Below, piece by piece: positions 1,978 to 40,739 of a stretch of DNA of 42,111 bases. A program made the position numbers and the translations under genes. Location of the stretch: the IMG/VR virus record IMGVR_UViG_3300017527_000425, positions 1-42,111 of that record, one strand, 5' to 3'. This DNA comes from a virus. The notes under the pieces are model-generated. The model ran no database searches and had not been told where the DNA came from. It saw only the letters and a program-made list of their open reading frames with translations. How positions within the stretch are numbered: the first letter of the stretch is position 1; each line of letters opens with the position of its first letter.

Positions 1978-3442
1978 AAAACTAATTTTAATATTTGCTG
2001 TATTTTTTCTACTTGGTGGGGTTGGGTGGGGTGAGACATATTACTATGTAGATCCTGATTTTGGAGGGACACCGGATGGGAGTGCCGCTACTCCTTGGAC
2101 GTTAATCGATAATGAGGGTGCAGTTAATGAATGGACTGCTATTAATTCGGCGCTTGCTTCTGATTCGGTTACAATATATTTTTCAGCACGCAATGCTTCA
2201 GCAGATACAGACGAAACCGCTACGGATAGCATAGAGGTTTTACGGACGGACGGTAGCGCAAATCGACTGACATTAGATGGAATGTCACAATATAACACTA
2301 ATGACTCAACTCCATCTTGGTCGGCGTATAGCGGTAGTAGTCGTTTTACCGTAACTGCCTCGTATCCTTTGGATTTTTTTGAAAGAGATACCGAAACTAC
2401 AGTTTCCGACAATATAACCGTCCAGGGGTTTCATTTTGACACAACTGGTGGATTTTGCGCTTACATCGGAGGGGATAATCTTATTATACAGGACAATGAG
2501 TTTGAAGCAACCGCCCCACAGGTCGGACCACTGGTACAGTTTAGATATTCTGATGATGTTGGTGTGCAAACAAATTTAATTTTCCGCCGAAACACATTAC
2601 ACGACACACACGGGGAGGCACTATACATTGGCGGAGATGGCAATAATGGAAATCCCAGTCATACTTATATTTATATTTACGAAAATGAGATTTATGATAT
2701 CGGCACTCTTGGGGGCGAAGGCGACGGGATTGATATAAAAGACGAGATGCGTTATGTCTATGTATATAATAATTATCTTTATGATATAGGCAATATTGGT
2801 ATTGTATCTCATACGTGGGACGATATTTATATATATAATAACCTAATTTACTCGGGGGGTAGTCACGGCATCGCTTTAAACGGTTCCTTTGGCACCGGAG
2901 GTGATCTTGCTGCTATATATGGTAACATAATATATGATCATGGCACATCTGATGATAGTTACGCCATTGCCTTAACCGCAACACATGATGGTGATGAGGT
3001 TGACGATGTTAGAGTATATAATAATACTATCAACAACAATGAGCGGGGGATTGCTTTTAGTGCAACTACGGATGGTGATTTTACAAATGCAGTAATGCGA
3101 AATAATTTAGTGACCAACAATGACGAAGTAGGGGTAAAAGCATATAATGTTACCCCTACTTTTTTTAATAATGATGTGTATAATAATACTGATAATTATC
3201 AATCAATTGCTGAGCAGGGAGGTAGTAACGGTAACATAACAGTTGATCCTCTATACGACGATGCCGGTTCAGGTGATTTCAACTTAGACCCAAGCTCCCC
3301 AGCATGTTTTGGAGGCACAGCAATATCAGGATATAACACAAGATTAGACCCAACATCCTCCTGGCCGGATGATGTGAGAACAAGGGGCGATACAAGACAA
3401 ATGGGCGCTCATGTTTGCAATGGTGGCGCTGCGGGAATGTAA
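1970..3442 (+). CDS. Secreted right-handed beta-helix protein (pectate-lyase-like fold)
   Basis: The start is chosen as GTG 1970, because a GGAGGAG lies 6 nt upstream and the protein then begins with a classical signal peptide (IKKLILIFAVFFLLGGVGWG, then ETYYYVDPDFGG). An ATG at 1955 lies before that SD. The opening YYYVDP..GG..DGS.ATPW is typical of parallel beta-helix surface proteins and phage polysaccharide depolymerases. The repeated N-N-x-I/L-Y/x-D-N rungs over residues ~130-430 fit a right-handed beta-helix. No catalytic triad can be assigned by eye. It probably binds or cleaves host surface polysaccharide. Unlike its downstream paralogue it stops before a conserved C-terminal tail that is present, out of frame, in the following DNA (3459-3515). 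Confidence 0.85.
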   Translation: MIKKLILIFAVFFLLGGVGWGETYYYVDPDFGGTPDGSAATPWTLIDNEGAVNEWTAINSALASDSVTIYFSARNASADTDETATDSIEVLRTDGSANRLTLDGMSQYNTNDSTPSWSAYSGSSRFTVTASYPLDFFERDTETTVSDNITVQGFHFDTTGGFCAYIGGDNLIIQDNEFEATAPQVGPLVQFRYSDDVGVQTNLIFRRNTLHDTHGEALYIGGDGNNGNPSHTYIYIYENEIYDIGTLGGEGDGIDIKDEMRYVYVYNNYLYDIGNIGIVSHTWDDIYIYNNLIYSGGSHGIALNGSFGTGGDLAAIYGNIIYDHGTSDDSYAIALTATHDGDEVDDVRVYNNTINNNERGIAFSATTDGDFTNAVMRNNLVTNNDEVGVKAYNVTPTFFNNDVYNNTDNYQSIAEQGGSNGNITVDPLYDDAGSGDFNLDPSSPACFGGTAISGYNTRLDPTSSWPDDVRTRGDTRQMGAHVCNGGAAGM

Positions 3443-3533: not shown

Positions 3534-5267
3534 ATGAAACGACTAATTTATATCCTGATAATTTTTTGCTTTACTGCGAATGTGTGGGGGGCGACCTATG
3601 ACGTTTGTGCTTCTGGTTGTGATGGAACGATAGCAAATTTTGAAGCTGGTGATTCCCCGTTTGATGCCCTGGCATCAGATACAGTTACTTTTACCGACTC
3701 AACCCAAAATGCAACTCTTGTGTTTCCTGATTCATTTGGGACTCAGGAATCACACCGCGCCACTCTTGTTTTCACTGGAGTTACGATAACAGTTGCTGGT
3801 TCATGCCTGGACACTAACGGCAGAGATTATGTAACGATAAGTGGGGGAACGTTCAGCGGGGGTAATGGGTCAACCGCATGTATTGAGGTTGATGCAAACT
3901 CTGTAGGTATTACGCTTGATGGAATCACCGTAAACCCGAATAGTGGGAATAATAGACTTTTTAGAATATGGGAAGGTGCCAATTATTTTATATTGAAAAA
4001 TAGTACAATTAACTCTCAGACTACAACGCAAAATGCCTTTCATGTCTACTTGGCTGGAGGAACTGCGTTAACAAATGTAACTATTGATAATAATACATTT
4101 ACTGGAGGTGGGGGTCATATTCTTCATGTGGTACCTCCTGGAGATGCCGGTACAGATATTACTGATTTTGTAATTTCAAATAATACTTTCACCGATTGGG
4201 GAGATAGTGCCGGTGATGTTGTTATCAGAATCATTTGGAAAGATTCAACTGTAGTGAGTGGTCTGACTATTTCCGGTAATACCTTCACTGACGGACAAAG
4301 AGGACTTCTTATCGAAGGTGATCACACCGAAGCTTCAATCGCGGCATATGATATAGATATTGATGGTAACAGCTTTAGCGACACAGGATCAATTGCAGCT
4401 ATTGACATTAATACCGTAACCTCTACAGCAGGAACATCATATATACGAAATAACATAGTGTATAGAGCAGGCGGTTCTGGAGGATATGCAACTATTAATG
4501 GGTTAAGGTGTGGTGTTTGTAACGGTGTAATAATTGAAAACAATGAAGTTTCATATTCAAATAGTTTAACTACGGATGGAAATGGAATCATTGTCGATAA
4601 ACACGAGATTGACAACGTTGACAACCAACCAAGTGTTAATGTGATAGTCCGAAATAATAGAGTTCACGATAATACGACTATCGGTGGACGGGGAATATCG
4701 GTTTATGTTTCGACTGGTACAAAAGTTTATAATAATATTTCTTACAGCAACACAAGAGGTATTGGAGCCGGCGGAAATGCAACTCAAGCATCAAGCGGTA
4801 CTTTAGTTTACAACAATACGCTTTACGGAAATTCTGATGCTGGTTTGCAGGTTCGACAATATGGCGGCGATGTAACAGCCAATAATAACATTCTTGTGGG
4901 TAATAACTATGGAGTTCTCGAAGAAAGCAGTGCAGACACACCCACGATAGATTATAATTTATATGATAACAATACGACCGCCGATGTATCTGATGAAGAT
5001 GCCGGGGCGCTGGCAAAAGGAGCAAATGCAGTGTCTTCAGATCCCAAATTCGTCAACGCAGCCGGTGGAAATTTCAATTTGGCAGAAGGTTCGCCAGTAA
5101 TCGACGCCGGTGTAGATCTATCTGGCACGTTCACCGACGATTATTTAGGCCGGACGAGACCGTATGGAGACGCCTGGGACATAGGCGCTTATGAATATGC
5201 AGACAAATTGATATCAGGTGGAGCTAACACGGTATCAATAGGAAGCAATTCGATAGGTGTGCCGTGA
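3534..5267 (+). CDS. Secreted right-handed beta-helix protein, paralogue of the previous one
   Basis: 577 residues. The N-terminus is a Sec signal peptide (MKRLIYILIIFCFTANVWG, cleavage likely before ATYDVC). The body has many IxNNTFT / VYNNT rungs, as in Pfam-type beta-helix proteins, then a C-terminal segment of the kind SPVIDAGVD..DYLGRTRPYGDAWDIGAYEY. That closing phrase is very common in bacterial secreted beta-helix proteins (choice-of-anchor type). It ends with the tail GGANTVSIGSNSIGVP, also found in shifted frame behind the upstream gene. Role inferred: host-surface polysaccharide recognition or degradation by a tail spike, or a protein exported by the infected cell. The signal peptide is odd for a virion protein. 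Confidence 0.85.
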   Translation: MKRLIYILIIFCFTANVWGATYDVCASGCDGTIANFEAGDSPFDALASDTVTFTDSTQNATLVFPDSFGTQESHRATLVFTGVTITVAGSCLDTNGRDYVTISGGTFSGGNGSTACIEVDANSVGITLDGITVNPNSGNNRLFRIWEGANYFILKNSTINSQTTTQNAFHVYLAGGTALTNVTIDNNTFTGGGGHILHVVPPGDAGTDITDFVISNNTFTDWGDSAGDVVIRIIWKDSTVVSGLTISGNTFTDGQRGLLIEGDHTEASIAAYDIDIDGNSFSDTGSIAAIDINTVTSTAGTSYIRNNIVYRAGGSGGYATINGLRCGVCNGVIIENNEVSYSNSLTTDGNGIIVDKHEIDNVDNQPSVNVIVRNNRVHDNTTIGGRGISVYVSTGTKVYNNISYSNTRGIGAGGNATQASSGTLVYNNTLYGNSDAGLQVRQYGGDVTANNNILVGNNYGVLEESSADTPTIDYNLYDNNTTADVSDEDAGALAKGANAVSSDPKFVNAAGGNFNLAEGSPVIDAGVDLSGTFTDDYLGRTRPYGDAWDIGAYEYADKLISGGANTVSIGSNSIGVP

Positions 5268-10467: not shown

Positions 10468-11175
10468 TCAAAAAGGAATGCCGTCGTCTTCTGCATCGAC
10501 TCCCGGTTCACGTGGTTCTTGTTTTTCCCAGGGATCTTGATCCGGACCGATAATCCGGTTTCCAGATTGACCTTGCTGGCCGGTTTCATTGTATTCTTTA
10601 GAATTAAAATCAGGCGGATTGTCTTGAAAAGTTTCACGTTCTTTTATAACAGAATTAAAAGCTGTGGCAGTATCAACTCTACCACCCCCTAAAGGAGGGC
10701 CGTCTTCTATCTTACACACTGCTCTAAGCCCTGCTCCTACGCCGAGTTTGCCCATATAATCGTAAGCGTAAAAACCGATGTACGCCTGGACTATACAGCC
10801 GCCATAAATTTCATTTTCGTCTTTGAGTTCTTCATTGTACACATTGACAATTTGAGGTTGCCAAGCACTTTTAGCATTGAAAAATATTTTGCCATAGTAA
10901 AAGTTGGTCTTGTCGATTTCACCATCTTTAATGGCTTTTGATTCGCCATTCCTAAGAGGAAGATTCAGTTTTGTGTAAAAGTCGGATGGATTGCTAGGCC
11001 ATTTTTTCATTGCTGCTGCCCTGATTGCGTTTCTTAACCCTGACATATCCTCAGCCTTATCAATCAAGAAAGTCGCTGAAAATTTCGGCGGATTGTCTTT
11101 AAAAGCTTTTGGTTCAAACAACTCCGGGTAAACGATAGTACATGGTGGTGTTAAACTAATTGTTGGATCTTGCAT
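10468..11175 (-). CDS. Phage single-stranded DNA-binding protein (DUF2815-like)
   Basis: 235 residues; GGAGGT upstream. The start (TPPCTIVYPELFEPKAF, then PPKFSATFLIDK) and the middle (YYGKIFFNAKSAWQPQIV.., IYGGCIVQAYIGFYAYDY, KLGVGAGLRAV) match the DUF2815 / T7 gp2.5-like OB-fold SSB group. The disordered tail ends in an acidic tip, EDDGIPF, the hallmark by which SSBs recruit replication partners. It protects ssDNA during replication or recombination. Next to a Cas4/RecB-like nuclease, as in many phage recombination modules. Confidence 0.9.
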   Translation of the reverse strand: MQDPTISLTPPCTIVYPELFEPKAFKDNPPKFSATFLIDKAEDMSGLRNAIRAAAMKKWPSNPSDFYTKLNLPLRNGESKAIKDGEIDKTNFYYGKIFFNAKSAWQPQIVNVYNEELKDENEIYGGCIVQAYIGFYAYDYMGKLGVGAGLRAVCKIEDGPPLGGGRVDTATAFNSVIKERETFQDNPPDFNSKEYNETGQQGQSGNRIIGPDQDPWEKQEPREPGVDAEDDGIPF

Positions 11176-15730: not shown

Positions 15731-15898
15731 ATGAAAAAGGACAAATGTAAGAGATGCGGCCATGAATGGTATCGTAGAAAGCCTGAAAAACCTATCCTAT
15801 GCCCAAATCCTAAATGTAGATCAGCCTATTGGGATATTGATAGGAAACACAACGGCACTCACGATTTAAATAAGCTACCTCAGATGCGGGGCGTATGA
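15731..15898 (+). CDS. Zinc-ribbon small protein
   Basis: 55 residues from ATG 15731 with AGGA 8 nt upstream. Motif C-x2-CGHEWxxRKPEKPxxCPNPKC-x-S-A-Y-W-D is a common bacterial/archaeal zinc ribbon. In phage Mu a zinc-finger protein, Com, controls mom translation; this one lies next to a Mom-like gene but downstream of it and is not Com-like in sequence, so the link is only suggestive. Confidence 0.65.
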   Translation: MKKDKCKRCGHEWYRRKPEKPILCPNPKCRSAYWDIDRKHNGTHDLNKLPQMRGV

Positions 15899-16578
15899 AA
15901 CCATACTACGAAACAGATTTAGGACGACTTTATCACGGTGACTGTCTTGAAATTATGGGGCAGCTTGAACCGGTTGATTTGGTTTTAACTGATCCACCTT
16001 ATGGGGTTTCGTGGCAATCAAATTGGCGGAAGAATAAATTTAATAAAATACATAATGACGAAAAAGTGCATTATAAATGGCTCAGTTATTTAAAGACAAA
16101 TGTTTTGTATTCTTTTGCTAAATGGTCAGTGATGCAGGAATGGATTGACCAGGTTTTAGCCGTTGGTCTATCTGTTAATGATGTTCTTATTTGGGATAAG
16201 TTAGCGCATGGCGCTGGAAATTTGAAATCATGGGCACCCACTTATGAGATGATAATTTACGCAACCAATGGAAGAGTCGAATTAAACGGGAAACGCCCTC
16301 AAAATGTTTTAAGGCATTGGCGAGTTGATGCTGGGGCAACTGGGAAGAGTAGTGGAAAATTGTTAAAGCATCCAGCACAAAAACCAGAATCATTATTTAT
16401 TGAAATTATTAAACGACATAGCGGTATTGTTTTAGACCCCTTCATAGGTTCAGGCACAACAGCAATAGCCTGTGAACGTCTTAACCGAAAGTGGATAGGC
16501 ATAGAAATCGAAGAAAAGTACTGTGAAATAGCTGCAAAGAGAATTGAATTGGAAAGAAAACAAAGAAAATTATTTTAA
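15895..16578 (+). CDS. Site-specific DNA methyltransferase (N4-cytosine/N6-adenine type)
   Basis: 227 residues. DPPYG (D33-G37, catalytic motif IV) precedes the SAM motif I LDPFIGSGTT (D181..G187), the order of beta-class enzymes. HPAQKP before motif I is the usual partner segment. C-terminal IGIEIEEKYCEIAAKRIE is typical. It methylates an adenine or cytosine in a short target, probably to protect phage DNA; no cognate endonuclease is adjacent. Overlaps the previous gene by 4 nt. Confidence 0.92.
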   Translation: MKPYYETDLGRLYHGDCLEIMGQLEPVDLVLTDPPYGVSWQSNWRKNKFNKIHNDEKVHYKWLSYLKTNVLYSFAKWSVMQEWIDQVLAVGLSVNDVLIWDKLAHGAGNLKSWAPTYEMIIYATNGRVELNGKRPQNVLRHWRVDAGATGKSSGKLLKHPAQKPESLFIEIIKRHSGIVLDPFIGSGTTAIACERLNRKWIGIEIEEKYCEIAAKRIELERKQRKLF

Positions 16579-20513: not shown

Positions 20514-21986
20514 ATGGGCCAAATATCTCCTAAAATAGCCGCAAAGCTCCTTAGACACCGTAGATTATGCCGTTCAAACCTATCCCCATTTGTACGTGGC
20601 ACCTTCCAAATCGTTTCCCCAGGCGACCAGTATAAGCATAATTGGCATATAGATGTTATCTGCGAGCACTTGGAGGCCGTATATAAAAAGCAACTATTCC
20701 GGCTTATTATAAACATGCCGCCGCGTTATATGAAATCCATATCGGCCAGCGTGGCATTTCCGGCATGGGTACTCGGCCAGGACCCGACTCAGCAAATAAT
20801 GTGCGCAAGTTATTCCCATTTCCTTGCATTTAAACATTCAGGTGATTGTCGCTTAACAGTAGAAAGTCCCTGGTATCATTCTATTTTCCCAAATACTAAA
20901 TTACAGATCGGCAATATCGAAAAACGGAAGTTTGAAACAACGGCAAAGGGCCATAGAGTCTCCACGTCAGTGGGTGGCTCCACGGTTGGATTGGGTGGCA
21001 ATATTTTAATAGTTGATGACCCGATTGACCCTGAACAGGCCTATAGCGAATTAGAGCGCGAGCGGTCAAACCGCTGGTATGATCAGACGTTCAGCACTCG
21101 GCTAAACGATAAAAAAACCGGCGCTATCATAATCATTATGCACAGGCTCCACCAGAATGATCTGTGCGGCCATGTATTAAAAAAAGCTGCCGATGATTGG
21201 ACGGTTTTAAAGATACCCGGTGAATTCAAAAAAAAAGCTACTTATTGCGTAAAGTCTGTTACCGAAATTGCCGGGGCGCGGAAACGCAAGAAACATATTA
21301 AAAAAGATTCGTTGTTGCACCCTGACTATGAGGGCCGGGTTGAGATAGAACGAGCTAAAACAACCCTGGGCAGCTATGGCTATTCATCACAATACCAACA
21401 GAACCCGTCTCCGGAAGGCGGCGGCATAATCAAACTAAAGTGGTTTGGGCGCTATAAATCGCTCCCGCCAATGAATGAGGTTGTGCAGGTCAGCCAGTTT
21501 TGGGACACCGCACAAAAATCCGACGAGGTATTACACGCTCCCTGGGTATGTGGCACATGGTATTCGACATACACCCACCATTATCTGGTACATATTTATC
21601 GGGACTGGATGGACTATCCCACCGGAAAGCGCACATTAAAAAACCTGGCTACGAAATGGAAACCCCACCAGATAGTGATCGAAGACAAGTCCACCGGCCA
21701 AAGCCTTATACAGGAGGTTGCAGGATTACCCACAATCCCGTTTGAGCCTGACGCCGACAAGATAACCCGACTCAGCACCGAAAGTCCGCTGGTCGAGTCC
21801 GGCATTATCATACTGCCGGAAGAGGCCAACTGGCTATTTGAATTTGAAGAGGAAATCCAACTATTTCCGAACTCGACATATAAAGACCAGGCTGATATGC
21901 TATCTATGGCGCTTAAGTTTTTCCGTACACGATTTCTAACTAACACGATCAATATAGGGGCCGGGGCCTCATCAATACCTCAATAA
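20514..21986 (+). CDS. terL: Large terminase subunit (ATPase and nuclease)
   Basis: 490 residues. ATPase: NMPPRYMKS (67-75, Walker A-like), ILIVDD (164-169, Walker B), motif around IIIIMHRLHQND (204-215). RNase H-fold nuclease: FWDTA with D331, VIEDKSTG (E390/D391), and DQADMLSMAL (D458/D461). It cuts and pumps DNA into the procapsid. ATG 20514 has no SD. An ATG at 20503, overlapping the TerS stop, opens a different frame reading MSDKWAKYLLK before a stop, which may be the original N-terminus displaced by an indel. Confidence 0.96.
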   Translation: MGQISPKIAAKLLRHRRLCRSNLSPFVRGTFQIVSPGDQYKHNWHIDVICEHLEAVYKKQLFRLIINMPPRYMKSISASVAFPAWVLGQDPTQQIMCASYSHFLAFKHSGDCRLTVESPWYHSIFPNTKLQIGNIEKRKFETTAKGHRVSTSVGGSTVGLGGNILIVDDPIDPEQAYSELERERSNRWYDQTFSTRLNDKKTGAIIIIMHRLHQNDLCGHVLKKAADDWTVLKIPGEFKKKATYCVKSVTEIAGARKRKKHIKKDSLLHPDYEGRVEIERAKTTLGSYGYSSQYQQNPSPEGGGIIKLKWFGRYKSLPPMNEVVQVSQFWDTAQKSDEVLHAPWVCGTWYSTYTHHYLVHIYRDWMDYPTGKRTLKNLATKWKPHQIVIEDKSTGQSLIQEVAGLPTIPFEPDADKITRLSTESPLVESGIIILPEEANWLFEFEEEIQLFPNSTYKDQADMLSMALKFFRTRFLTNTINIGAGASSIPQ

Positions 21987-21996
21987 GGTTCTATTT

Positions 21997-24198
21997 ATGG
22001 GTATATTTGATATTTTTAGAAAAGACAGTGGCCAGCCGGATCAGCCAGCGCCGGTTCCCACCGGAGAGGTCGGCTATTCATTTTCCACTATATACACCAG
22101 CGGTGATTTCCCACGGTACAACCCCGATAGCCTTTTGATCAACCGAGGCCGGGCCATATATGACAAAATGATGGAGGACGACCAGGTAAAAGCGGTAATG
22201 CTGTTCAAGCAGATGGCCGTGGTATCCCGCAAGTATTTTTTCGATGTCAAGGTATCGGATGATGGAGTTAAAGATACGGAGCAAGAGAAGATAGCTGATT
22301 TTTTCCAGGTAGTTATCAACTGTATTGTGGGGTCATGGTCCGACAAACTGATCGAAATTTTATCTGCTATGAAATATGGGTTTTCTGTTTGCGAGAAAAT
22401 ATTTATTCCCGTAAAGTATGATTCCCGCGAGTACTGGGGGCTGCAGGACATAAAGCTTCGCCCGTTTAATTCGTTTGATGGCGGATTTAAAACAGACAAG
22501 CATGGAAATATTACCACAATAGTGCAAATGACCGACGATGCAACCGAAATTAAAATACCGCCGAACAAGGTGATTCACTTTGTATATCAGCCGGATATAG
22601 ATAGGCATTATGGCGAGAGTGATCTTCGGACCGCATACCGGCCGTATTGGTCTAAAGATGTGGCAATTAAGTTTGAGAATATCCACCTGGAACGTCATGC
22701 TCACGGTTTTATATGGGCACAGACTGACCCGGCCAAGGGCGCTTTAACCAGTAAGCAGATATCAGACCTTGAATCCGTACTAGACAATATTACGGCAAAA
22801 ACATCCTTGCATGTTCCGGCATCCGTTGAAATCAACACGATCCAACCGCTACGGACAGACGCCTATAATCTCGCAATCCAGCGGCATGATAAGGCTATCG
22901 CAAAATCCTTACTGGTTCCCAACCTACTCGGCCTATCAGAGCAAGGCTCCACCGGGAGCTATGCGCAAAGCTCAACACAGTTAGAAGCGTTTTTTTGGAT
23001 ACTGGACTTTATGGCCAATCGTTTGGCCGAGGCATTAAACGAGCAGTTATTTCGAGACCTTTCGATATGGAACTTCGGGACAGAAGATTTTCCACAGTTT
23101 AAATTTGAGCCGATCTCAGACTCCAAAAAGCTTGAAATCATCAAACAGTGGAACGAGATGGTCAAGGGCCACTCGGTTACGAAATCAGATTCGGACGAGG
23201 CGTATGTACGTCAGATTATGGACTTTCCCAAAAAAGAGGAGCAGGGCGAATTGCCCGACGATTCTGATCATCTTCCGGTCGAGCAACCAGATGAAGTTGA
23301 ACTCAGCGATTGGCTTTCCGGGAAGGACCGGCAGTTAATAAAAGAATTTGCAGAAAGCCCATGGATGCGCCGGGTAAATTTTGTGAAGATCGAAAAAGGT
23401 TTAAATGCTCAGGATATGGAATTTTCCAGGGAACTATCTATGGTCATGGGCCAGGTGCGCCTATCACTTGAAAAACAAATAGTGAGTGTTGGTGGCACCC
23501 GGAGCTGGGGAAACGTAAACCCCAAAGAAGTCGGGAGCATAAAAATCCCGGCGACTCTCGTGTCAAAGATCAGAAAGGTGATCCGCACGAATACCGAGGC
23601 GTCATTGAATAGCAATTACGAAACGGCGAGGCGCGAGCTACCAGTTAAAAAGTTTGCAAAGATAAACCCTGGGATGACAAAAGACAAAGCCATGCAGTAT
23701 CTATCATCTGCCGCAATGCGAGGGGCACAAACGCTTGATCACGATGTGATAGACGCTATCCGTATCGTTTTGCAGAATGCGATTAAATACGACAAGAGCC
23801 TACGAGACACCATCGCCTCACTTAATGACAATACGACCTTGGCAACCACATTACCGCAAATAGATGCTGCCGGTCGCGCGGTGAATATACCAGCAAGGCT
23901 TGAGACCATAGCACGCACTAATACCGCTGATGCTATGAATCAGGCCAGAACGAGTCTATTTAATAATCCAGAGCTGAAGGGGTTTGTCCAAGCGTTTGAA
24001 TATGCAGCGATTCTGGATGATAGGATAACTGATATATGCGAGCATTTAAACGGGAAAAAACTTAGGGACTTTGCCAACTACACCCCGCCAAATCATTTTA
24101 ATTGTAGGTCGATATTAATTGCGATAACAAAGGTCGATGATTGGAACGGGAAAGAGTCGGCGCCACCTTCACAACGGCCACAAAAAGGTTTTTATTGA
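21997..24198 (+). CDS. Portal protein fused to a Mu-F-like head morphogenesis domain
   Basis: 733 residues. Residues ~1-430 match the DUF935 portal group of Mu-like phages (KVIHFVYQPDIDRHYGESDL, then YWSKDVAIKFENIHLERHAH, then LGLSEQGSTGSYAQ). Residues ~600-720 match the phage Mu F minor-head domain (IARTNTADAMNQARTSLF, then ILDDRITDICEHLNGK, ending PPNHFNCRS). In Mu these are separate genes; here one polypeptide carries both. It forms the dodecameric DNA entry ring and presumably brings the MuF part into the head. Confidence 0.9.
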   Translation: MGIFDIFRKDSGQPDQPAPVPTGEVGYSFSTIYTSGDFPRYNPDSLLINRGRAIYDKMMEDDQVKAVMLFKQMAVVSRKYFFDVKVSDDGVKDTEQEKIADFFQVVINCIVGSWSDKLIEILSAMKYGFSVCEKIFIPVKYDSREYWGLQDIKLRPFNSFDGGFKTDKHGNITTIVQMTDDATEIKIPPNKVIHFVYQPDIDRHYGESDLRTAYRPYWSKDVAIKFENIHLERHAHGFIWAQTDPAKGALTSKQISDLESVLDNITAKTSLHVPASVEINTIQPLRTDAYNLAIQRHDKAIAKSLLVPNLLGLSEQGSTGSYAQSSTQLEAFFWILDFMANRLAEALNEQLFRDLSIWNFGTEDFPQFKFEPISDSKKLEIIKQWNEMVKGHSVTKSDSDEAYVRQIMDFPKKEEQGELPDDSDHLPVEQPDEVELSDWLSGKDRQLIKEFAESPWMRRVNFVKIEKGLNAQDMEFSRELSMVMGQVRLSLEKQIVSVGGTRSWGNVNPKEVGSIKIPATLVSKIRKVIRTNTEASLNSNYETARRELPVKKFAKINPGMTKDKAMQYLSSAAMRGAQTLDHDVIDAIRIVLQNAIKYDKSLRDTIASLNDNTTLATTLPQIDAAGRAVNIPARLETIARTNTADAMNQARTSLFNNPELKGFVQAFEYAAILDDRITDICEHLNGKKLRDFANYTPPNHFNCRSILIAITKVDDWNGKESAPPSQRPQKGFY

Positions 24199-24204
24199 TA
24201 ATCC

Positions 24205-24915
24205 GTGGTAAAATTAAATACTATAACAACGATTGAACTTTCATCTGCTTGTAATTTAAAATGCAGTTATTGTGTGAACAGGCTCATTGGTGTAAATTCA
24301 GATAGAGTACCAGGAATAATGAGCGATTCGGTGTTTAGTGCATCGGTAAAGCTTTTGAAGAGGTTGGTTGATAGAGGAACCCAAAAAGAAATCAGTTTAA
24401 ACGGGAACGGCGAGAGCTTTTTAGACACATCACTCATAGAACGTGTTAAAACAGTAAGGAAGATTCTCGGAGATAACAACTTATTGTTAATGTCAACAAA
24501 TTCTACGCTTGTGACTAAAGAGATTGCTATTTCGTTGAAAGATGCGGGTTTGGATGAGATTCATACGTCGATACATAAACCGGAAGCGGTTAGAAAGGCG
24601 TTGCCGATATTTTCTGATGCAGGGTTGAAAACCGTTATCAATGCAGGGGTTATTATATTTTCTCATAACTGGGCAGGGCAACTTGAAGATGAAAACAAAG
24701 TGCCCAAGGAAAGGTTGCCGGACATTCAATGCGACCCGCTTATTGACGGTAGAGGGTACGTGTCGGCAGAGGGGAACATAAGCCCATGTTGTTATGACTA
24801 TCGGAATATAGGAGTATTTGGGACTGTATTTAATAAAGATATACTGGATAAAGAATACGGCGCATATGAGTTGTGTCGTGGATGCCATCAGGTAATACCA
24901 CCGGAATTATTATGA
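24205..24915 (+). CDS. Radical SAM enzyme 1
   Basis: 236 residues. C16-x3-C20-x2-C23 (ACNLKCSYC) binds the catalytic 4Fe-4S cluster that cleaves SAM. GNGE, LLLMSTNST and the beta/alpha strands follow the radical SAM barrel. The C-terminal part has CC (SPCCYDYRNIGVFG) and CRGC, which could hold one auxiliary cluster as in SPASM/twitch enzymes. Starts at GTG 24205; weak SD. It is paralogous to the next gene and overlaps it (ATGA). Such enzymes often modify peptides, but many other substrates exist. Its place between the portal and protease/scaffold genes is unusual. Confidence 0.88.
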   Translation: MVKLNTITTIELSSACNLKCSYCVNRLIGVNSDRVPGIMSDSVFSASVKLLKRLVDRGTQKEISLNGNGESFLDTSLIERVKTVRKILGDNNLLLMSTNSTLVTKEIAISLKDAGLDEIHTSIHKPEAVRKALPIFSDAGLKTVINAGVIIFSHNWAGQLEDENKVPKERLPDIQCDPLIDGRGYVSAEGNISPCCYDYRNIGVFGTVFNKDILDKEYGAYELCRGCHQVIPPELL

Positions 24916-25649
24916 AAATTATTGAGACAATCAACACCATTGAGCTTTCGTCGGTCTGTGACAATAAGTGCCAGTATTGCCCGGCGCGATTGCAGTCCGA
25001 GCATAGACTTACTGGCTTTATGTCATGGGCGACATTTAAGCACGCTATTGATAAAGCCTTAGTCTTTGCGCGAGCCGGAACACAGCGGGAAATCAACCTG
25101 TTCGGGGTAGGTGAGCCAACGCTGCATAAATATATAGTGGCTATGGTACGCTATGCCAGGGAGCATTTACCGTTTAATCAGGTTTTGCACCTGAATACCA
25201 ATGGCAACACCATGACGATGCAACTCGCCAAGGACCTAAAGGACGCCGGCATCACGTCGATTGACATAACGGGCCACGATCATGCTGTAACTGCAAAAAC
25301 AATTAAAATATTCCGAGAATTAGAAATAGTTGGAAATTTGTCATATGATTTTGTCACTGCTCCGAACAACTGGGCGGGTCAAGTGGATTGGTTTGAACCT
25401 GACACCCGGCTACCAGTATATCGTAATAATCCCTGTCCGTGGCTGGAACGTGGCCAGGTTATGGTGATGAGTGACGGCCTTATCACGACTTGCTGCATCG
25501 ATGCCTTTGGGCGAAACGTTATTTGCGACATATCAGACAACCTTGAAAATTTTGAGGTTGCAGAAAGTGAGCTATGTAAAAGCTGTCATCACAAAATCCC
25601 GGAAACATCATCAAAATTTGAGCAGACCTTAGACTTGATGGCGGTGTAA
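24912..25649 (+). CDS. Radical SAM enzyme 2
   Basis: 245 residues from ATG 24912; an upstream ATG at 24873 lies inside the previous gene and is not used. Cysteines at the same positions as in the first paralogue, C16, C20 and C23 (VCDNKCQYC). Shared phrases include ETINTIELSS, NxWAGQxD/E, a GxGE strand and a C-terminal CKSCHHKIP. The C-terminal CC and CxxC may bind an auxiliary Fe-S cluster. Tandem duplication followed by divergence is clear. Substrate unknown. Lies 21 nt before the protease/scaffold gene, so it is made with head proteins. Confidence 0.88.
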   Translation: MKIIETINTIELSSVCDNKCQYCPARLQSEHRLTGFMSWATFKHAIDKALVFARAGTQREINLFGVGEPTLHKYIVAMVRYAREHLPFNQVLHLNTNGNTMTMQLAKDLKDAGITSIDITGHDHAVTAKTIKIFRELEIVGNLSYDFVTAPNNWAGQVDWFEPDTRLPVYRNNPCPWLERGQVMVMSDGLITTCCIDAFGRNVICDISDNLENFEVAESELCKSCHHKIPETSSKFEQTLDLMAV

Positions 25650-25670: not shown

Positions 25671-26915
25671 ATGCCATATGATAGCAATGAAAAATTACCG
25701 GATACCGTAAAAGTTCTTCCAGATGCTGCACAAACGATCTGGCGCAATGCGTTTAACTCGGCCAATAAGTCTGGCAAAGATGACGAGTCTTCCTCCAAGA
25801 TCGGATGGGGTGCCGTAAAGAACGCTGGCTGGTCAAAGGGTCAAGATGGCAACTGGGCCAAGTCGCAGAGTGACACCGGCCACGAATTCGATGTTGAGGT
25901 GATGTCGGTCGGAACCTGGAACGGTGACAAGTTCACAACCGAACATCTACAAAACCTTGCCCACAACTTCGATGCGTTGAAGGATACGGTTAAGCCATTT
26001 TTAAAGCTCGGCCATAACCAGAAACAGGAAGATGGTAAACCCTCCATGGGCTGGGTTAAGGCGCTGAAGGTATCAGGTGACAAACTTATTGCAACATTAA
26101 CACAAGTGCCTGAAGTTGTTTATAAAGCGATCAAGGGTGGGCGATATAAACGCCTATCAGCAGAGATATATTTCAATATGCGCGACAAGGCCGGTAATAT
26201 CCGCAAGCGTGTATTACGAGCGGTCGCACTCCTCGGCGCCGATGTTCCCGCAGTCGATAACCTGGCAGATATAGACGCCTACTTAACTCAATCCATTCTG
26301 AATGAACAGTTTGACAAGGTAATGGCGTATACCTGGCAAATGAATAATTTTGATAAAAAAGAACTAACTATCAACGGAATTGTAAACCAGACAAGAGGTG
26401 ATACCATGGCTGATGATGAAAAGAGGGATAAAGAAATAAAAGAGTTTAAGGACCGCCTTGAACTCGCTGAAAAAGAAAAGGCGGACGCCCAAAAACTGGC
26501 GGATGATAACGCCACCAAGCTGAAGGAATTCGAGGAAAATAAAGCCGCCGAAGAAAAAGCATCCAATGAGAAGGAATTTAAGGCTTTCTGTGAGGCGGCC
26601 GTGAAAGGCGGAAAGCTTACGCCGGCATCCAGGGACGAGCTCGTCAAGGGTTTCGTCTATGATGCAAAGCAGGGGTATCTGTGTCCGTTCAGCGTGTTTA
26701 AAAAATACGTGGAAGACACAAAAATCATCCTTGATATGCGCGAGTATGGGCACGATACCGACAACACAAATTATGGGGATGGTGCCACGGTCCAAAAGAT
26801 CGTCGATACCAAAGCCACGGAATACGCAGCAAAGCATAAGGTTGATTACAGTACCGCAATGCTCGCTGTTCTGAACGATAACCCGAAACTTGCAAACGCT
26901 TACGTCAAAGAATAG
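25671..26915 (+). CDS. Head maturation protease with scaffold domain (Mu gpI-like), ChaB-like N-terminus
   Basis: 414 residues in three parts. Residues ~1-65 are ChaB-like (LPDTVKVLPDAAQTIWRNAF, then GWGAVKNAGW). Residues ~70-225 resemble the Mu gpI protease (DVEVMSVGTWNGDKFTTEHL, then KPFLKLGHNQ, then AEIYFNM, then ALLGADVPAV). Residues ~246-330 are a charged coiled coil typical of scaffolds. An internal start at 26406 with a strong SD can make the scaffold alone. The protease cleaves scaffold and other head proteins during maturation. Stop is TAG. Confidence 0.88.
   Translation: MPYDSNEKLPDTVKVLPDAAQTIWRNAFNSANKSGKDDESSSKIGWGAVKNAGWSKGQDGNWAKSQSDTGHEFDVEVMSVGTWNGDKFTTEHLQNLAHNFDALKDTVKPFLKLGHNQKQEDGKPSMGWVKALKVSGDKLIATLTQVPEVVYKAIKGGRYKRLSAEIYFNMRDKAGNIRKRVLRAVALLGADVPAVDNLADIDAYLTQSILNEQFDKVMAYTWQMNNFDKKELTINGIVNQTRGDTMADDEKRDKEIKEFKDRLELAEKEKADAQKLADDNATKLKEFEENKAAEEKASNEKEFKAFCEAAVKGGKLTPASRDELVKGFVYDAKQGYLCPFSVFKKYVEDTKIILDMREYGHDTDNTNYGDGATVQKIVDTKATEYAAKHKVDYSTAMLAVLNDNPKLANAYVKE
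26406..26915 (+). CDS. Scaffolding protein from an internal start
   Basis: ATG 26406 is in frame with the protease gene (codon 246). It is preceded by AGAGGTGAT 4 nt upstream, an excellent SD that a merely internal Met would not need. The product (169 residues, beginning ADDEKRDKEIKEFKDRLELA) is a helical, acidic scaffold with a C-terminal globular region. This mirrors lambda Nu3 and Mu gpZ, nested in their protease genes. Confidence 0.75.
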   Translation: MADDEKRDKEIKEFKDRLELAEKEKADAQKLADDNATKLKEFEENKAAEEKASNEKEFKAFCEAAVKGGKLTPASRDELVKGFVYDAKQGYLCPFSVFKKYVEDTKIILDMREYGHDTDNTNYGDGATVQKIVDTKATEYAAKHKVDYSTAMLAVLNDNPKLANAYVKE

Positions 26916-26947: not shown

Positions 26948-27322
26948 ATGGCAACTGAAAATAAAAATTGGTTCCTGACCTTTGAAGCGGCAGAGGATCT
27001 TTCATCGTTGGAGTACCAGATTGTTACGATTGCTGACGACAAGATTGCCAATGATGGCCAGGAAGCCACTGGGGTACTGGTATCTAAACCGAAATCAGGT
27101 GAACATGGATCGATCATGTTTATGGGGATCGGAAAGGCCAGGGCCGGTGGAGCAATCGCAAAAAATGGTGTGTTTAAGACCGTCACATCCGGGTATATCT
27201 CGGCGGCAACTTCTGGTGGCTGGGTAAATGGTCGCGCACTTGAGGCAATCACGTCAGGGAGTATCGGTAAAATTTTCTGGCATGGCGTAAACCAGTATCA
27301 GGTTAGTTCGATTGATGGATAA
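26948..27322 (+). CDS. Head decoration protein (DUF2190-like)
   Basis: 124 residues, GGAGGT upstream. Small beta-rich domain with the phrases GIGKARAGGAIAKNGVFKTV, SGGWVNGRALE and SGSIGKIFW, the pattern of capsid-stabilising/decoration proteins that trimerise on HK97-type shells. Just before the capsid gene, which fits. Confidence 0.85.
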   Translation: MATENKNWFLTFEAAEDLSSLEYQIVTIADDKIANDGQEATGVLVSKPKSGEHGSIMFMGIGKARAGGAIAKNGVFKTVTSGYISAATSGGWVNGRALEAITSGSIGKIFWHGVNQYQVSSIDG

Positions 27323-27338: not shown

Positions 27339-28301
27339 ATGGGAGCACGAGGACACGATTTACATATTGACCAGCCACTGAGCAACGTGGCAATGAGCTA
27401 CAGGCCGGAGGGCATGATCGCTGATATTGTAGCGCCGGAGGTTCCGGTGCAAAAGCAATCAGATTCATATACGATATGGTCACAAGCCGATGCCCTGCGG
27501 ACTGAGGACGATAAACGAGCCCCGGGAACCGAGGCTAACCTGATCACTCGTGGTGTATCAAGTGATACGTATTTCGCCAATAACTTTGCGCTGAAATCCG
27601 CATTGACATTGGAGGACCGCGAGAATATGGACGCCGCTTTCATCCAACAGTTGCGAAACGGCAAAGTTGAATACATCAAAGATAAGCTGACCCTTAACTG
27701 GGAAAAACGTCTTGCGGACAAGGTGACGAGTGGCTCAAATGTTGGCAGCTATTCAACAATAGATTCTGACTGGCAAGATTATACCACGGGCCAATCAGAT
27801 CCTATCGGAGATATGCAAACGGCGATTACCAATGTTCAGGATGCCACCGGGTATCGTCCCAACCGTTGCCTCATGGGTGGCCTTGCTTGGCGTCATTTCC
27901 GAAGGCATGAAGACGTTATCGATCTTTTGTATGGGTCCTCTGGCCAGGGCAAAGTCCGTTATGCCTCACGCGAACAGGCAAAGGAAATCTTCGAGGTGGA
28001 TCAACTTATCATTGGTGAAACATACTACAACAGCGGCGCTGAAGGTCAAAGCCTAGCATTGCAACATATGTGGTTAGATTATGTCTTGGTCTATTATGCA
28101 CCTTCACGGCCCTCTCGGGAAACGCCCAGTTTCATGTATTCATTTCGTTGGAAAAAACCCGCTATCCCAAATATGGCGGCAGAGGTTCATCCGTTCGACC
28201 GCAAGACAAAATCAGAGGAGGTCGAGCTTGGCTATTACCAGGACGAAAAAATCACTGGCGCTAACCTGGGGTTTCTTTTAACTCATGTAACCAGCGTTTA
28301 A
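27339..28301 (+). CDS. Major capsid protein
   Basis: 320 residues, GGAGGTGAT upstream. The type (ISNxAMSYRPEGMIADIVAPEV start, RAPGTEANLITRGVSSDTYF, LEDRENMDAAF) is the HK97-fold major capsid group found with DUF2190-like decoration proteins in siphoviruses. The C-terminal half holds the A-domain (YYNSGAEGQSLALQHMW, SRPSRETPSFMYSFRW). Forms the shell. A 12-bp hairpin follows its stop, and a glycosyltransferase gene lies downstream, so it may be glycosylated. Confidence 0.9.
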   Translation: MGARGHDLHIDQPLSNVAMSYRPEGMIADIVAPEVPVQKQSDSYTIWSQADALRTEDDKRAPGTEANLITRGVSSDTYFANNFALKSALTLEDRENMDAAFIQQLRNGKVEYIKDKLTLNWEKRLADKVTSGSNVGSYSTIDSDWQDYTTGQSDPIGDMQTAITNVQDATGYRPNRCLMGGLAWRHFRRHEDVIDLLYGSSGQGKVRYASREQAKEIFEVDQLIIGETYYNSGAEGQSLALQHMWLDYVLVYYAPSRPSRETPSFMYSFRWKKPAIPNMAAEVHPFDRKTKSEEVELGYYQDEKITGANLGFLLTHVTSV

Positions 28302-28383: not shown

Positions 28384-28545
28384 ATGCTGCGCGATGATGC
28401 GATAAAAAAGGGCTTGATAAAGCCAAAGGATAAAGAAGAGGCCGACCGATTCGGGATGGATTTTCAGCCGGTCAACATACCGAAATCCGAAAGACCAAAC
28501 GTGTCGACGACTCCAAAGTATCGGCATAAAAAGAAATCAAGATAA
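28384..28545 (+). CDS. Small basic protein between capsid and glycosyltransferase genes
   Basis: 53 residues, AGGAG upstream of ATG 28384. Begins with a charged helix (MLRDDAIKKGLIKPKDKEEA) and ends in a very basic tail (PKYRHKKKSR). No family recognised. Such short ORFs after the capsid gene can be head-stabilising proteins. It could also be a substrate for the neighbouring modifying enzymes, but nothing in it shows that. Confidence 0.5.
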   Translation: MLRDDAIKKGLIKPKDKEEADRFGMDFQPVNIPKSERPNVSTTPKYRHKKKSR

Positions 28546-28569: not shown

Positions 28570-31488
28570 ATGAGAATAATATTTCATGTTGGTGGCATGC
28601 CTTTTAACGGCTCCACTATTTCGGATGGAAAGAGCCTCGGCGGGTCAGAAAGCGCCGGGTATTATATGGCGAGGGAGATGGCCAGGTTAGGCCATGAAGT
28701 TGTAATTTTTACCTCGTCACCTGACACCGGTTTTTCAGATGGCGTGTTTTTTGAATGGATGGGGGAACGCTCGGAGCAATACCCGCTCGGCCACAGGTTC
28801 GACGTTTCCAGCAAGGTTCCCGCAGATGTAACTATCATCCAACGTATACCGTTTGCGTTCCGCAAGCCGATCAACTCAAAATTAAATATATGGTGGGTAC
28901 ATGATATCGGTTTGATGCGTCACTCCATGATCGTGCAGCAACAACTCGTTAATATCGATCAGATATTTACCGTTTCAGAATTTCATAAAAACCAATTCGC
29001 AAAAGTGTTCGATATTCCAAAGCATATCATTACCGCAACATTCAACGGGGTTGATTATACGTATCCTGAAGAACTGGAAGCGCAAAATTTACCACGGGTA
29101 CCAAAGTCGCTGGTTTTTGCATCGAGACCTGAGCGAGGACTTGAAAACCTTGTGGGCCGCAACGGAATAATGAAAAGCCTGCCTGATTGTCACCTGTATG
29201 TATGTGGGTATGACAATACCGTTCCCCAGATGAGGGACTATTACCGGTATTTATATAACAGGTGCGACCAACTGGACAATGTGACAAACCTTGGCAGCCT
29301 CGGTAAAAATGAATTATATAAGTTACTTGCAAAGTCGGAGTTGTGTGTATACCCAACCACCTTTGAAGACACCAGCAACATGATGTTGCTTGAATCCAAT
29401 GCGGTCGGTACGCCGTTTATTGGGCCAAAGGATCGCGCAGCACTTCCGCAAACCGGCCATAACGCCGGTGTGAAATTTGTGCCATTAAAAGACGGGAAAA
29501 TCCACAAACAGGCATTTGTGAAATGTATAAAAGAATGTCTCGAAGCATCCACCTGGGATAGGCTCCACATTAAAGCGCTCGGCAAAGAACAGACATGGAA
29601 AGCGGCTGCTATGCAATGGGATCAGGTATTCAACGACCTGTTATATTATAAATGCAATGATAAAAGGCGTTTATACAAACACCTGGAACATCATAGCGAT
29701 ATCATTGCCATAGGTGAGGACCACCCGGCACCGGACATGCAACTTCTGGAAAGTGTTCTTCCCGGGTTCAGAAAAAACTACGAGTTTTTGTATAATAACG
29801 ATTTCAAGGGCCACTATGATCGCTATTATGAGTATGAGGAAAGCAGGGGCGTAAAATATGGCCCTGAAGATCTAACCGGGCAGCCCAGGTTTGAGCACAC
29901 GGCACGGCTGATTGATGAAATGGGTCCAGGTGCAATACTTGATTACGGATGTGCCCACGGACATTATGTTATGAACCTTATGAACCGGTATCCGCATATA
30001 CGTTTTTTCGGGGCTGATATAAACGCGAAAAACATAGAGATTGCGAGGCGTTGGGCACTTGATGTCATTGGCGACAAGTCCGAGCAGGATCAGGCGCTGG
30101 ACACGGTTAATAATTTGTTTTTTCAGTCAACAGCAGATGATGATTTTGACCTTGCTTGCAATGTGGACGTTATCTTGCTTCAGGAAATTTTGGAGCATGT
30201 TCCCAATCCGGGAACTTTGGTTGAACAGTTAAGTACGCACCTGGCACCGGAAGGGCATTTTTTAATATCGGTCCCGTATGGTCCATGGGAGGCCCTGGGG
30301 TATAAAAAACACCCTGGATGGAGAGCGCATATCCATCATATCGAACGTGAGGACCTTTATGAACTATTTAGGGCACAGGAAGACTTTAAACTGATCGCGT
30401 TGCCACACAGAGACAATATGGGCCACTATATTGTCACGTTTAAGTATAACCCTGATATACCTATCGGCAAAATCGATTATGTCCGCAAATTAAAACAACA
30501 GGCACCACGTGAAACATTATCAGTTTGCATGATCGCAAAAAATGAGCAGCACACTATTGGAAGGACCATTGAGTCGATAATAGATATTGCGGATGAAATA
30601 ATTATAGGCCTGGATGAAACTACAACAGATGAAACCTACGCAGTGGCCATGCAGTTTGTTGGCCCTGAAAATATCATCCCGATTAAATCACCGATGGAAA
30701 CCGGGTTCGCCGTGGCAAGGCAGGTAACTATCGATGCCGCTTCTATGGATTGGATATTGTGGATTGACTGCGACGAAACTTTCGAGCAAGCTGAGAACCT
30801 ACCGAAATACTTACGCAATAACTGTATGGATGGATATGGAATCAAGCAACACCACTATGCAGTTGAGCCTGCGGAGTTGTTTAAAACAGATTACCCCTGC
30901 CGGTTATTCCGCAATAATAAGGGCATGAAATTTTTTGGCTTTGTCCACGAGCACCCGGAAAAAGAAATGAACAAGGGCCCTGGTAAAACTCATCTTATCG
31001 ATGACGTGGCTATTATGCATACCGGATATCCGACCGAGCAGGTGCGGCGGAAACGGTTTGAGCGCAATTTCCCGTTGATACAAAAAGATCGGGAGCTTAA
31101 TCCCGATAGAAATCTTGGAAAATTCCTGTGGGTACGAGACCTCGCCCACTTCGCCCGGTACAGCATGGAGCAAAACGGCGGGGTTGTAACCCCACGGATT
31201 GAAGATGCAGCTGCCCAGGGAATTGAGATGTGGCGTGAACTTTTAAAGACTGGCGACCTTCGGCTGATCACGCAAAGTATCCCGTTTTATTCCGAATGTG
31301 TTTATCGATTAATGAACGGCAACGGCATTGATTTCACCCTGGCGATCACTTCGGGTAAGGGTGGCAATCGTTTTGTATTGCCGGACCGAAAGATCGAGGG
31401 TTTGTTTGCCAGCATCGAGGACATTAAAAAGCTAAATAAAGTTATCGTTGACAAGTCTGTCGAGCATTACGAAAATAAATATTATTAA
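28570..31488 (+). CDS. Trifunctional glycosyltransferase (GT4) - methyltransferase - glycosyltransferase (GT2)
   Basis: 972 residues, three domains. ~1-365: GT-B fold like GT4 (GGSESAGYYMAREMARLGHE, VFASRPERGLENL, then YPTTFEDTSNMMLLESNAVG with E266 and E276). ~430-620: class I methyltransferase (LDYGCAHG at 457-464, FFGADINAKNIEIARRWALD, LLQEILEHVPNP). ~640-960: GT-A fold like GT2 (LSVCMIAKNEQHTIGRTIES, IIIGLDETTTDET, WIDCDE at 731-736 as the DxD-like metal site). It should build and methylate a glycan, most likely on a virion protein, because it lies between capsid and connector genes. Capsid and tail glycosylation by structural-operon GTs is known in some mycobacteriophages. Confidence 0.88.
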   Translation: MRIIFHVGGMPFNGSTISDGKSLGGSESAGYYMAREMARLGHEVVIFTSSPDTGFSDGVFFEWMGERSEQYPLGHRFDVSSKVPADVTIIQRIPFAFRKPINSKLNIWWVHDIGLMRHSMIVQQQLVNIDQIFTVSEFHKNQFAKVFDIPKHIITATFNGVDYTYPEELEAQNLPRVPKSLVFASRPERGLENLVGRNGIMKSLPDCHLYVCGYDNTVPQMRDYYRYLYNRCDQLDNVTNLGSLGKNELYKLLAKSELCVYPTTFEDTSNMMLLESNAVGTPFIGPKDRAALPQTGHNAGVKFVPLKDGKIHKQAFVKCIKECLEASTWDRLHIKALGKEQTWKAAAMQWDQVFNDLLYYKCNDKRRLYKHLEHHSDIIAIGEDHPAPDMQLLESVLPGFRKNYEFLYNNDFKGHYDRYYEYEESRGVKYGPEDLTGQPRFEHTARLIDEMGPGAILDYGCAHGHYVMNLMNRYPHIRFFGADINAKNIEIARRWALDVIGDKSEQDQALDTVNNLFFQSTADDDFDLACNVDVILLQEILEHVPNPGTLVEQLSTHLAPEGHFLISVPYGPWEALGYKKHPGWRAHIHHIEREDLYELFRAQEDFKLIALPHRDNMGHYIVTFKYNPDIPIGKIDYVRKLKQQAPRETLSVCMIAKNEQHTIGRTIESIIDIADEIIIGLDETTTDETYAVAMQFVGPENIIPIKSPMETGFAVARQVTIDAASMDWILWIDCDETFEQAENLPKYLRNNCMDGYGIKQHHYAVEPAELFKTDYPCRLFRNNKGMKFFGFVHEHPEKEMNKGPGKTHLIDDVAIMHTGYPTEQVRRKRFERNFPLIQKDRELNPDRNLGKFLWVRDLAHFARYSMEQNGGVVTPRIEDAAAQGIEMWRELLKTGDLRLITQSIPFYSECVYRLMNGNGIDFTLAITSGKGGNRFVLPDRKIEGLFASIEDIKKLNKVIVDKSVEHYENKYY

Positions 31489-31500
31489 AGGGTCTATCCT

Positions 31501-31959
31501 ATGTACGCAACATATTCAGATTGTTCCGTTCGATACCCAATACTGAGCAAATGGAATCCGTCCAGTGTATCGGCTGTTAATTCGGACCTTGTATATTATG
31601 CCGAAAAAGAAATCGACGGTCGCCTGGCTTCACACTTTGCGGTGCCATTCACTGATGTGCCGCCGACCATATCCGACCTAACCATCGATTATGTATATCT
31701 GAAAATGTTGCGGTCGCGGGATCTGGATAAAGCCGCTGAGTTTGAAAAAATACTTGATGCCCGAATTGAACGGCTCAAGGAAGGCGAGGAATATATTTTT
31801 ACCGAGTCAGGCACCACCATTGCACCTGCAGGTGCCAGTGATGGAGTATGGTCGAACACGAAGGACTATTACCCAGTTCATTCTATACTGGATGCCGATT
31901 CACCTTACGCCGGATTTGATTCGGATATGATAGACGACGAGGAAGACATCAGGAGCTAA
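31501..31959 (+). CDS. Head-tail connector/adaptor protein (Mu gp36-like, DUF1320 type)
   Basis: 152 residues. The start YSDCSVRYPILSKW, then VNSDLVYYAEKEIDGRLASH and DLTIDYVYLKML, follow the helical adaptor proteins that bind the portal. The acidic C-terminus (DSDMIDDEEDI) is unusual. Overlaps the next start (TAATG). It joins portal and tail during assembly. Confidence 0.75.
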   Translation: MYATYSDCSVRYPILSKWNPSSVSAVNSDLVYYAEKEIDGRLASHFAVPFTDVPPTISDLTIDYVYLKMLRSRDLDKAAEFEKILDARIERLKEGEEYIFTESGTTIAPAGASDGVWSNTKDYYPVHSILDADSPYAGFDSDMIDDEEDIRS

Positions 31960-40244: not shown

Positions 40245-40739
40245 ATGAAAAAGATTTTAGCGTTTGCATTCAGTATGTTTTTAATGTGTTCCAGTGCTTA
40301 TGCGGCAGAGATCACTTTCGCCTGGGACCCTAACACGGAAAATGATTTGGCAGGATATAAAATATATGCCGGTAAGGTATCACGTTTCGATCCGGCGTTG
40401 AATCCGGCCGATATATTGGCGGCTAAACAGGCAGAATGCGATACCCAGGAGTGCAAGGATACGTGGGCGGCGTTTTGTGACGATCCGGAAGATCCCTTAT
40501 GTGATTTTGATTTCTACACCTACGATTCTGTTGTTGATGTCGGCAATGTCACTGAGTACAAAATGTTAAATGTCGGAGAGGGGCCTGGATTTTATGCTGC
40601 AACGGCTTACGATACTTTCGGTAATGAGTCTAAATTTTCGGTCGAGTTGTCGCTGGTCATTAATACGTCGAGGCCGGGTGCTCCACAGGTTTTTAAAGCA
40701 ACAATAAAGGCAAGCAAAGTGACAGTTGAAACTGATTAA
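40245..40739 (+). CDS. Secreted fibronectin type III-like protein
   Basis: 164 residues, GGGGG upstream. Signal peptide (MKKILAFAFSMFLMCSSAYA, then AEITFAWDPNTENDLAGYKI): after cleavage, ITFAWDP..DLAGYKIYAG is the classic fibronectin type III opening found in secreted bacterial proteins. Two short Cys-containing loops follow (CDTQECKDTWAAFC), then VTEYKMLNVGEGPGFYAATA. First of the six signal-peptide genes. Possibly a virion adhesin or a host-surface protein. Confidence 0.75.
   Translation: MKKILAFAFSMFLMCSSAYAAEITFAWDPNTENDLAGYKIYAGKVSRFDPALNPADILAAKQAECDTQECKDTWAAFCDDPEDPLCDFDFYTYDSVVDVGNVTEYKMLNVGEGPGFYAATAYDTFGNESKFSVELSLVINTSRPGAPQVFKATIKASKVTVETD

Follow-up and report, generated by a model that had tools for sequence, protein, structure and literature searches.

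Two tandem genes for paralogous radical-SAM enzymes, here called rsA and rsB, lie within the head module of an uncultured virus, known from a 42,111-base IMG/VR virus record that forms the window, i.e. the whole stretch of DNA that was analysed. Judged from sequence comparison and a predicted structure, both products are twitch radical-SAM enzymes that appear BtrN-like in architecture, which does not imply that they have the dehydrogenase activity of BtrN. With slightly better than even confidence, the head module may be viewed as a virion-protein glycosylation system in which rsA and rsB would serve, on a substrate and by a reaction that we infer, as accessory BtrN-like sugar-tailoring enzymes. 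What the analysis itself establishes are the intact genes, the fold, the conservation of the cluster ligands, the one-of-each pairing of the two paralogues, their location in the head module and the nearest relatives of a GT2 glycosyltransferase domain encoded after the capsid gene.

The head module, all genes of which described here are on the plus strand, starts with the gene for the terminase large subunit (20514..21986; PF17289; phrog_38, E 1e-90). The left flank of the pair is a portal gene fused to a Mu F-like head morphogenesis domain (portal-MuF, 21997..24198; PF06074, 155 bits; PF04233, 43.9 bits), and 6 bp downstream of it rsA begins with a GTG codon (24205..24915, 236 residues). The TGA stop codon of rsA (24913-24915) and the ATG start codon of rsB (24912-24914) have an ATGA in common, and rsB (24912..25649, 245 residues) is followed after 21 bp by the right flank, the gene for a Mu I-like head maturation protease/scaffold (25671..26915; PF10123; phrog_976), in which a ChaB domain (PF06150) is found N-terminal to the Mu I-like part. 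A small head protein (26948..27322), classed by PHROGs as head scaffolding (phrog_673, E 1.8e-8) and suggested by its position and size to be a decoration protein, precedes the major capsid protein (27339..28301; PF03864; phrog_1005, E 1e-61). The capsid gene is followed by the gene for a 972-residue protein composed, according to Pfam, of GT4, methyltransferase and GT2 domains (28570..31488, with the GT2 domain at about 30490-31485), referred to below as the mega-enzyme. The right edge of the module is a Mu gp36-like head-tail gene (31501..31959), recognised by its conserved position and by a PF07030 match of 22.5 bits, just below the cut-off. The coordinates, Pfam and PHROGs thus confirm the ATGA overlap and the place between portal-MuF and protease/scaffold that an earlier note on this DNA had described. 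The short spacing (6 and 21 bp) and the overlap suggest that the head genes around rsA and rsB may form one operon; a promoter scan of this operon gave a signal at background level. The GC content of rsA (0.40; GC3 0.38) is lower than that of rsB (0.46; GC3 0.50) and of the other operon genes, a hint that rsA may have been acquired separately or replaced. Between the capsid and mega-enzyme genes there is also an open reading frame of 53 residues (28384-28545), relatives of which occupy the same place in several other loci.

Both rsA (41.0 bits) and rsB (40.6 bits) pass the cut-off of 29.5 bits for the Pfam family Radical_SAM (PF04055), and they are 34% identical over nearly their whole length (E 2e-36), so that the paralogy proposed in the earlier note holds. 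Equally sound was its recognition of identical cysteines at positions 16, 20 and 23 (CX3CX2C) and of common CC and CxxC motifs near the C-terminus (C176, C195-C196 and C224xxC227 in rsA; C175, C194-C195 and C222xxC225 in rsB), since the core cysteines and the C-terminal C...CC...CxxC pattern are invariant in alignments of 19 rsA-type and 25 rsB-type relatives. The two alignments also have an N-W-A-G-Q signature in common. The invariant core motif, the PF04055 matches and, for rsA, the partial TIM barrel of an AF2 model and its Foldseek matches assign the proteins to the radical-SAM superfamily, as had been claimed from the letters of the DNA. The invariant C-terminal cysteines are those expected of a twitch domain and would bind one auxiliary Fe-S cluster. 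The SPASM motif has seven cysteines, arranged as CX9-15GX4C-gap-CX2CX5CX3C-gap-C (PMC6231123), versus only five conserved C-terminal cysteines here, and the domain is therefore a one-cluster twitch form; of the SPASM-like identity suggested before, the auxiliary-cluster domain stands and the full SPASM domain does not. A third radical-SAM match in the window, on the minus strand at 40617-40733, reached 14.4 bits, below the cut-off, in a frame of 58 residues and was treated as chance.

The AF2 model of rsA (pLDDT 96.3, pTM 0.92) forms the barrel from the very start of the chain, with no N-terminal peptide-recognition domain. The confidence of this model and the purifying selection seen in close radical-SAM relatives (dN/dS 0.05-0.18 in the pairs measured) argue that the pair is not a chance arrangement. 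In Foldseek the first match of the model is BtrN (4m7t; E 5e-14, TM 0.69/0.67), the next protein other than BtrN following at 4e-7; BtrN is also first in a profile search (E 2e-19 versus 4e-11 for the next) and the best solved relative of rsB in phmmer (E 7e-8). BtrN oxidises the aminocyclitol 2-deoxy-scyllo-inosamine (PMC9012708). It resembles rsA and rsB in length, in fold, in the C16/C20/C23 numbering of the core and in four aligned cysteines of the twitch cluster, C176 and C195 of rsA corresponding to BtrN 169 and 187 and the CxxC of rsB to BtrN 232/235. The viral proteins differ from it in that they are only 18-20% identical to it in the fold alignment, that they are a phage-encoded tandem pair and that the invariant Trp156 of the N-W-A-G-Q motif is aligned with BtrN Arg152, so that the arginine of the BtrN family is absent. 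Arg152 is an active-site residue of BtrN, and its replacement by Trp156 means that the chemistry of BtrN is not assured. In general, the substrates of twitch and SPASM enzymes are many, and within the subfamily function cannot be predicted from similarity (PMC6231123).

From SPASM-like peptide modification, the earlier note had arrived at a head protein, or another co-expressed product, as a possible substrate, and rsA and rsB might act on head-protein residues directly, by cross-linking, epimerisation or oxidation and independently of any glycan. Such a role would suit a pair found within the head module in nearly all loci, and Foldseek also matches the peptide-modifying enzymes SkfB, ChlB, TigE and EpeE, just as profiles also match the anaerobic sulfatase maturases, which act on proteins. 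BtrN is, however, clearly closer than any peptide maturase in both kinds of search, the rsA model starts with the barrel itself, and phages that lack the pair retain the portal, protease and capsid genes, so that no conserved head protein depends on it. Direct modification is, for these reasons, considered unlikely. The proposal has further lost ground because the nearest structure belongs to an aminocyclitol dehydrogenase and there is no candidate precursor peptide beside the pair, and because it overlooked both the protein-glycosyltransferase-like mega-enzyme after the capsid gene and the methyl- and sulfotransferases found in the same slot. Taken together, the evidence points more to tailoring of a glycan on a virion protein than to direct modification of a peptide. 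Hardly credible is a viperin-like function, i.e. the production of a chain-terminating nucleotide in defence or counter-defence: there are weak PADLOC matches to pVip (rsB, E 3e-9) and fold matches to viperin, but the former are limited to the common radical-SAM core (about residues 12-122), the NCBIfam model of prokaryotic viperin gives 32 bits against a cut-off of 180, with no full-length match, and the twitch cysteines and the BtrN-like length point elsewhere.

The likely partner of the pair is the mega-enzyme, the gene of which lies at most 6 kb downstream of that for the capsid in every one of the 54 loci that were recruited through the capsid and had enough sequence, and in 43 of the 45 recruited through the radical-SAM genes. 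In a profile search against the PDB its GT2 domain matched GmaR (6e-26), SunS (6e-22) and ThuS (7msk, 2e-19), after which the values drop to 5e-7, and SunS is also the best Foldseek match (4e-15) when the full-length protein is modelled with AF2 (pLDDT 90). By profile and by predicted fold, the GT2 domain is accordingly placed nearest to the protein and peptide glycosyltransferases, with SunS and ThuS close in both respects and GmaR by profile; it differs from all three in being fused, as the C-terminal third, to GT4 and methyltransferase domains in a protein encoded in a phage head operon. The best NCBIfam match of the GT2 domain is again SunS, at 59.5 bits against an equivalog cut-off of 350, which makes it a relative and not a SunS. 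GmaR O-glycosylates flagellin, and SunS and ThuS S-glycosylate peptides; their PDB titles likewise name flagellin or peptide glycosylation. Since these relatives act on flagellin or peptides, the acceptor here would be a virion protein, and the major capsid protein is a candidate. Among deposited phages the mega-enzyme has matches in only three records, covering 34% of its length, and the cultured phages CRP-6 and KPP23, which have related capsids, have no annotated glycosyltransferase or radical-SAM gene at that place. Four loci (L222, L229, L231 and L237) have an extra GT4-type open reading frame between the capsid gene and that of the mega-enzyme.

The same genes could instead tailor the surface polysaccharide or O-antigen of the host during infection, as a means of superinfection exclusion, their place in the head operon then being incidental. 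The GT4 domain of the mega-enzyme does resemble GT4 enzymes acting on small molecules and polysaccharides, and the host-recognition regions of pelagimyophages hold cassettes of glycosyltransferase and radical-SAM genes, modification of the O-chain having been proposed for the glycosyltransferases (PMC7029224). We regard this reading as decidedly unlikely: a place among the genes for portal, protease and capsid suggests that they are expressed late, together with the virion proteins, the best matches of the GT2 domain are protein and peptide glycosyltransferases, well ahead of cell-wall and other GT2 enzymes, and no membrane flippase or polymerase was recognised nearby.

A tblastn search with rsA and rsB against 50,697 deposited phages gave no match, and no cultured member is known. 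Scans of IMG/VR returned 27, 78 and 80 loci; once overlaps had been removed, one or both radical-SAM genes were found in about 94 distinct viral loci, the window among them, and these counts include some near-identical contigs. In a maximum-likelihood tree of 135 proteins, the bootstrap values of which are not settled, the lineage of the window consists of paralogue groups A, with rsA, and B, where rsB is found with its B-type relatives, and a more distant lineage consists of groups X and Y, group B being what remains after A, X and Y. With the groups read off the same tree that was used for the count, the copies belong to different paralogue groups in all 44 of the 44 two-copy viral loci (22 A-B and 22 X/Y). 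Both gene orders occur in the X/Y loci (12 and 10), for which random pairing would yield about 11 mixed loci out of 22, the observed 22 being reached in none of 10,000 shuffles. Only one copy of usable length was present in 46 loci, partly because contigs are cut, and the pair is therefore common, not obligatory. An apparent radical-SAM protein of 430 residues in L080 proved to be an over-long frame overlapping the capsid gene and not a fusion.

In a scan of bacterial and archaeal genomes the sole match of phage-like similarity was L031, a contig of 10,453 bases binned as Zixibacteria, which agrees with IMG/VR locus L107 in its length and in that of the match and is probably the same phage contig. 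The other nine matches are distant, the cellular homologues other than L031 being only 21-34% identical. Four of these (L032, L034, L035 and L038) are located in nucleotide-sugar or polysaccharide gene clusters, beside genes for GDP-mannose dehydratase-like proteins, DegT aminotransferases and glycosyltransferases. In three bacterial MAGs (L035, 398-2484; L036, 6910-8780; L037, 147-2116) a radical-SAM gene, of the SPASM type in L035 and L036, overlaps a second one, in tandem like the phage pair; sugar genes adjoin the tandem of L035.

The site of the radical-SAM genes moves, yet it is nearly always within the head module and often beside the capsid or mega-enzyme gene. Where both flanks are visible, 61 copies lie between portal and protease, 16 between the mega-enzyme and gp36 and about 10 between the capsid and the mega-enzyme, and only three upstream of the portal gene. 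With nearly all copies in three slots between portal and gp36, the genes do not behave as random cargo at varied sites, a distribution that the earlier note had named as fatal to its idea. Only 12 of 25 complete head modules contain radical-SAM genes, which are thus accessory. In relatives the slot is shared with FkbM methyltransferases, class I methyltransferases, sulfotransferases and GT2 enzymes, and it also holds unrelated inserts such as an amidase, HTH proteins and virion proteins; phages that lack the pair have either no gene between portal and protease or other genes, many of which look structural on visual inspection. Large genes without a Pfam match adjoin the radical-SAM genes in L085 (11918-14052) and L133 (10688-11626). 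RiPP clusters often contain radical-SAM genes in pairs, and with short open reading frames near some copies the pair could be taken for maturases of a small precursor peptide. This is very improbable, because the 6 and 21 bp beside the pair in the window leave no room for a precursor gene, no adjacent precursor or recognition element being found there; the rsA model has no recognition-element domain, the recurrent neighbours that could be identified are sugar-, methyl- and sulfotransferases and virion proteins, and no conserved cysteine-rich short peptide occurs among the recurrent neighbour clusters.

A more specific form of the glycan-tailoring reading, to which we give somewhat less than an even chance, is that the large uncultured lineage glycosylates its capsid by means of the GT4-methyltransferase-GT2 enzyme and that the one-of-each twitch pair edits the virion glycan anaerobically, by oxidation or epimerisation. 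In the broader reading, the mega-enzyme would build and methylate a short glycan, and its GT2 domain would transfer sugar onto a protein of the virion, with the major capsid protein or the small head protein as the likeliest acceptor, comparable to GmaR with flagellin and SunS with its peptide. In rsA and rsB, the core [4Fe-4S] cluster and SAM would generate a 5'-deoxyadenosyl radical, which would take a hydrogen from a sugar carbon, the second electron passing to the twitch cluster; the outcome might be a keto sugar, through a BtrN-like oxidation, or a related epimerisation. Each paralogue may act at a position of its own, or one may act after the other, and this could be why both are kept. 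A sugar as the substrate, the reaction itself and a virion protein as the acceptor are what we infer. The functional link between the pair and glycosylation rests on position, slot-mates, the relationship to BtrN and the cellular contexts, and shared ancestry is its weakest point: every sampled member of the capsid clade has the mega-enzyme, pair or no pair, so that its co-occurrence with the pair is partly a matter of common descent.

To our knowledge, there are few established cases of phage virion glycosylation, and what it serves is for the most part unclear. In the open-access literature, to which the search was confined, no paper was found that describes such a pair in a head operon or its combination with a SunS/GmaR-like fusion, in agreement with the earlier statement that no phage system of this form is described. 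Multiple radical-SAM genes are found in the Campylobacter phages CP220 and CPt10, which have many (PMC2853527), and in pelagimyophages, the radical-SAM cassettes of which lie near glycosyltransferase genes (PMC7029224); in those phages they are described as an interchangeable module or as host-recognition cassettes, whereas here they form a one-of-each pair in a head operon. In mycobacteriophage Maravista, phage-encoded glycosyltransferases suggest glycosylation of the capsid (PMC11256854); it represents another phage lineage, and the abstract mentions two glycosyltransferases and no radical-SAM enzyme. In the uncultured lineage, a protein-glycosyltransferase-like enzyme appears to have become fixed next to the capsid gene, with tailoring enzymes being swapped in nearby slots, and these swapped enzymes (the radical-SAM pair, methyltransferases and sulfotransferases) would make the chemistry of the particle surface a variable, evolving trait. 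If true, radical chemistry would diversify the sugar coat of the virus particle, and the findings suggest, as a still unproven idea, that these viruses decorate their particles with chemically altered sugars. The pair also stands for two families of small twitch radical-SAM enzymes, both conserved and with a substrate class that can be tested, in a subfamily the functions of which are hard to predict from sequence.

Elsewhere in the window, two successive genes (1955-3442 and 3534-5267) encode beta-helix proteins that match DUF5123 and may be tail-spike paralogues in tandem. An Enc34-type single-stranded DNA-binding protein (PF10991) is encoded on the minus strand at 10468-11175, and an N6/N4-type DNA methylase (PF01555, 104 bits) at 15895-16578.
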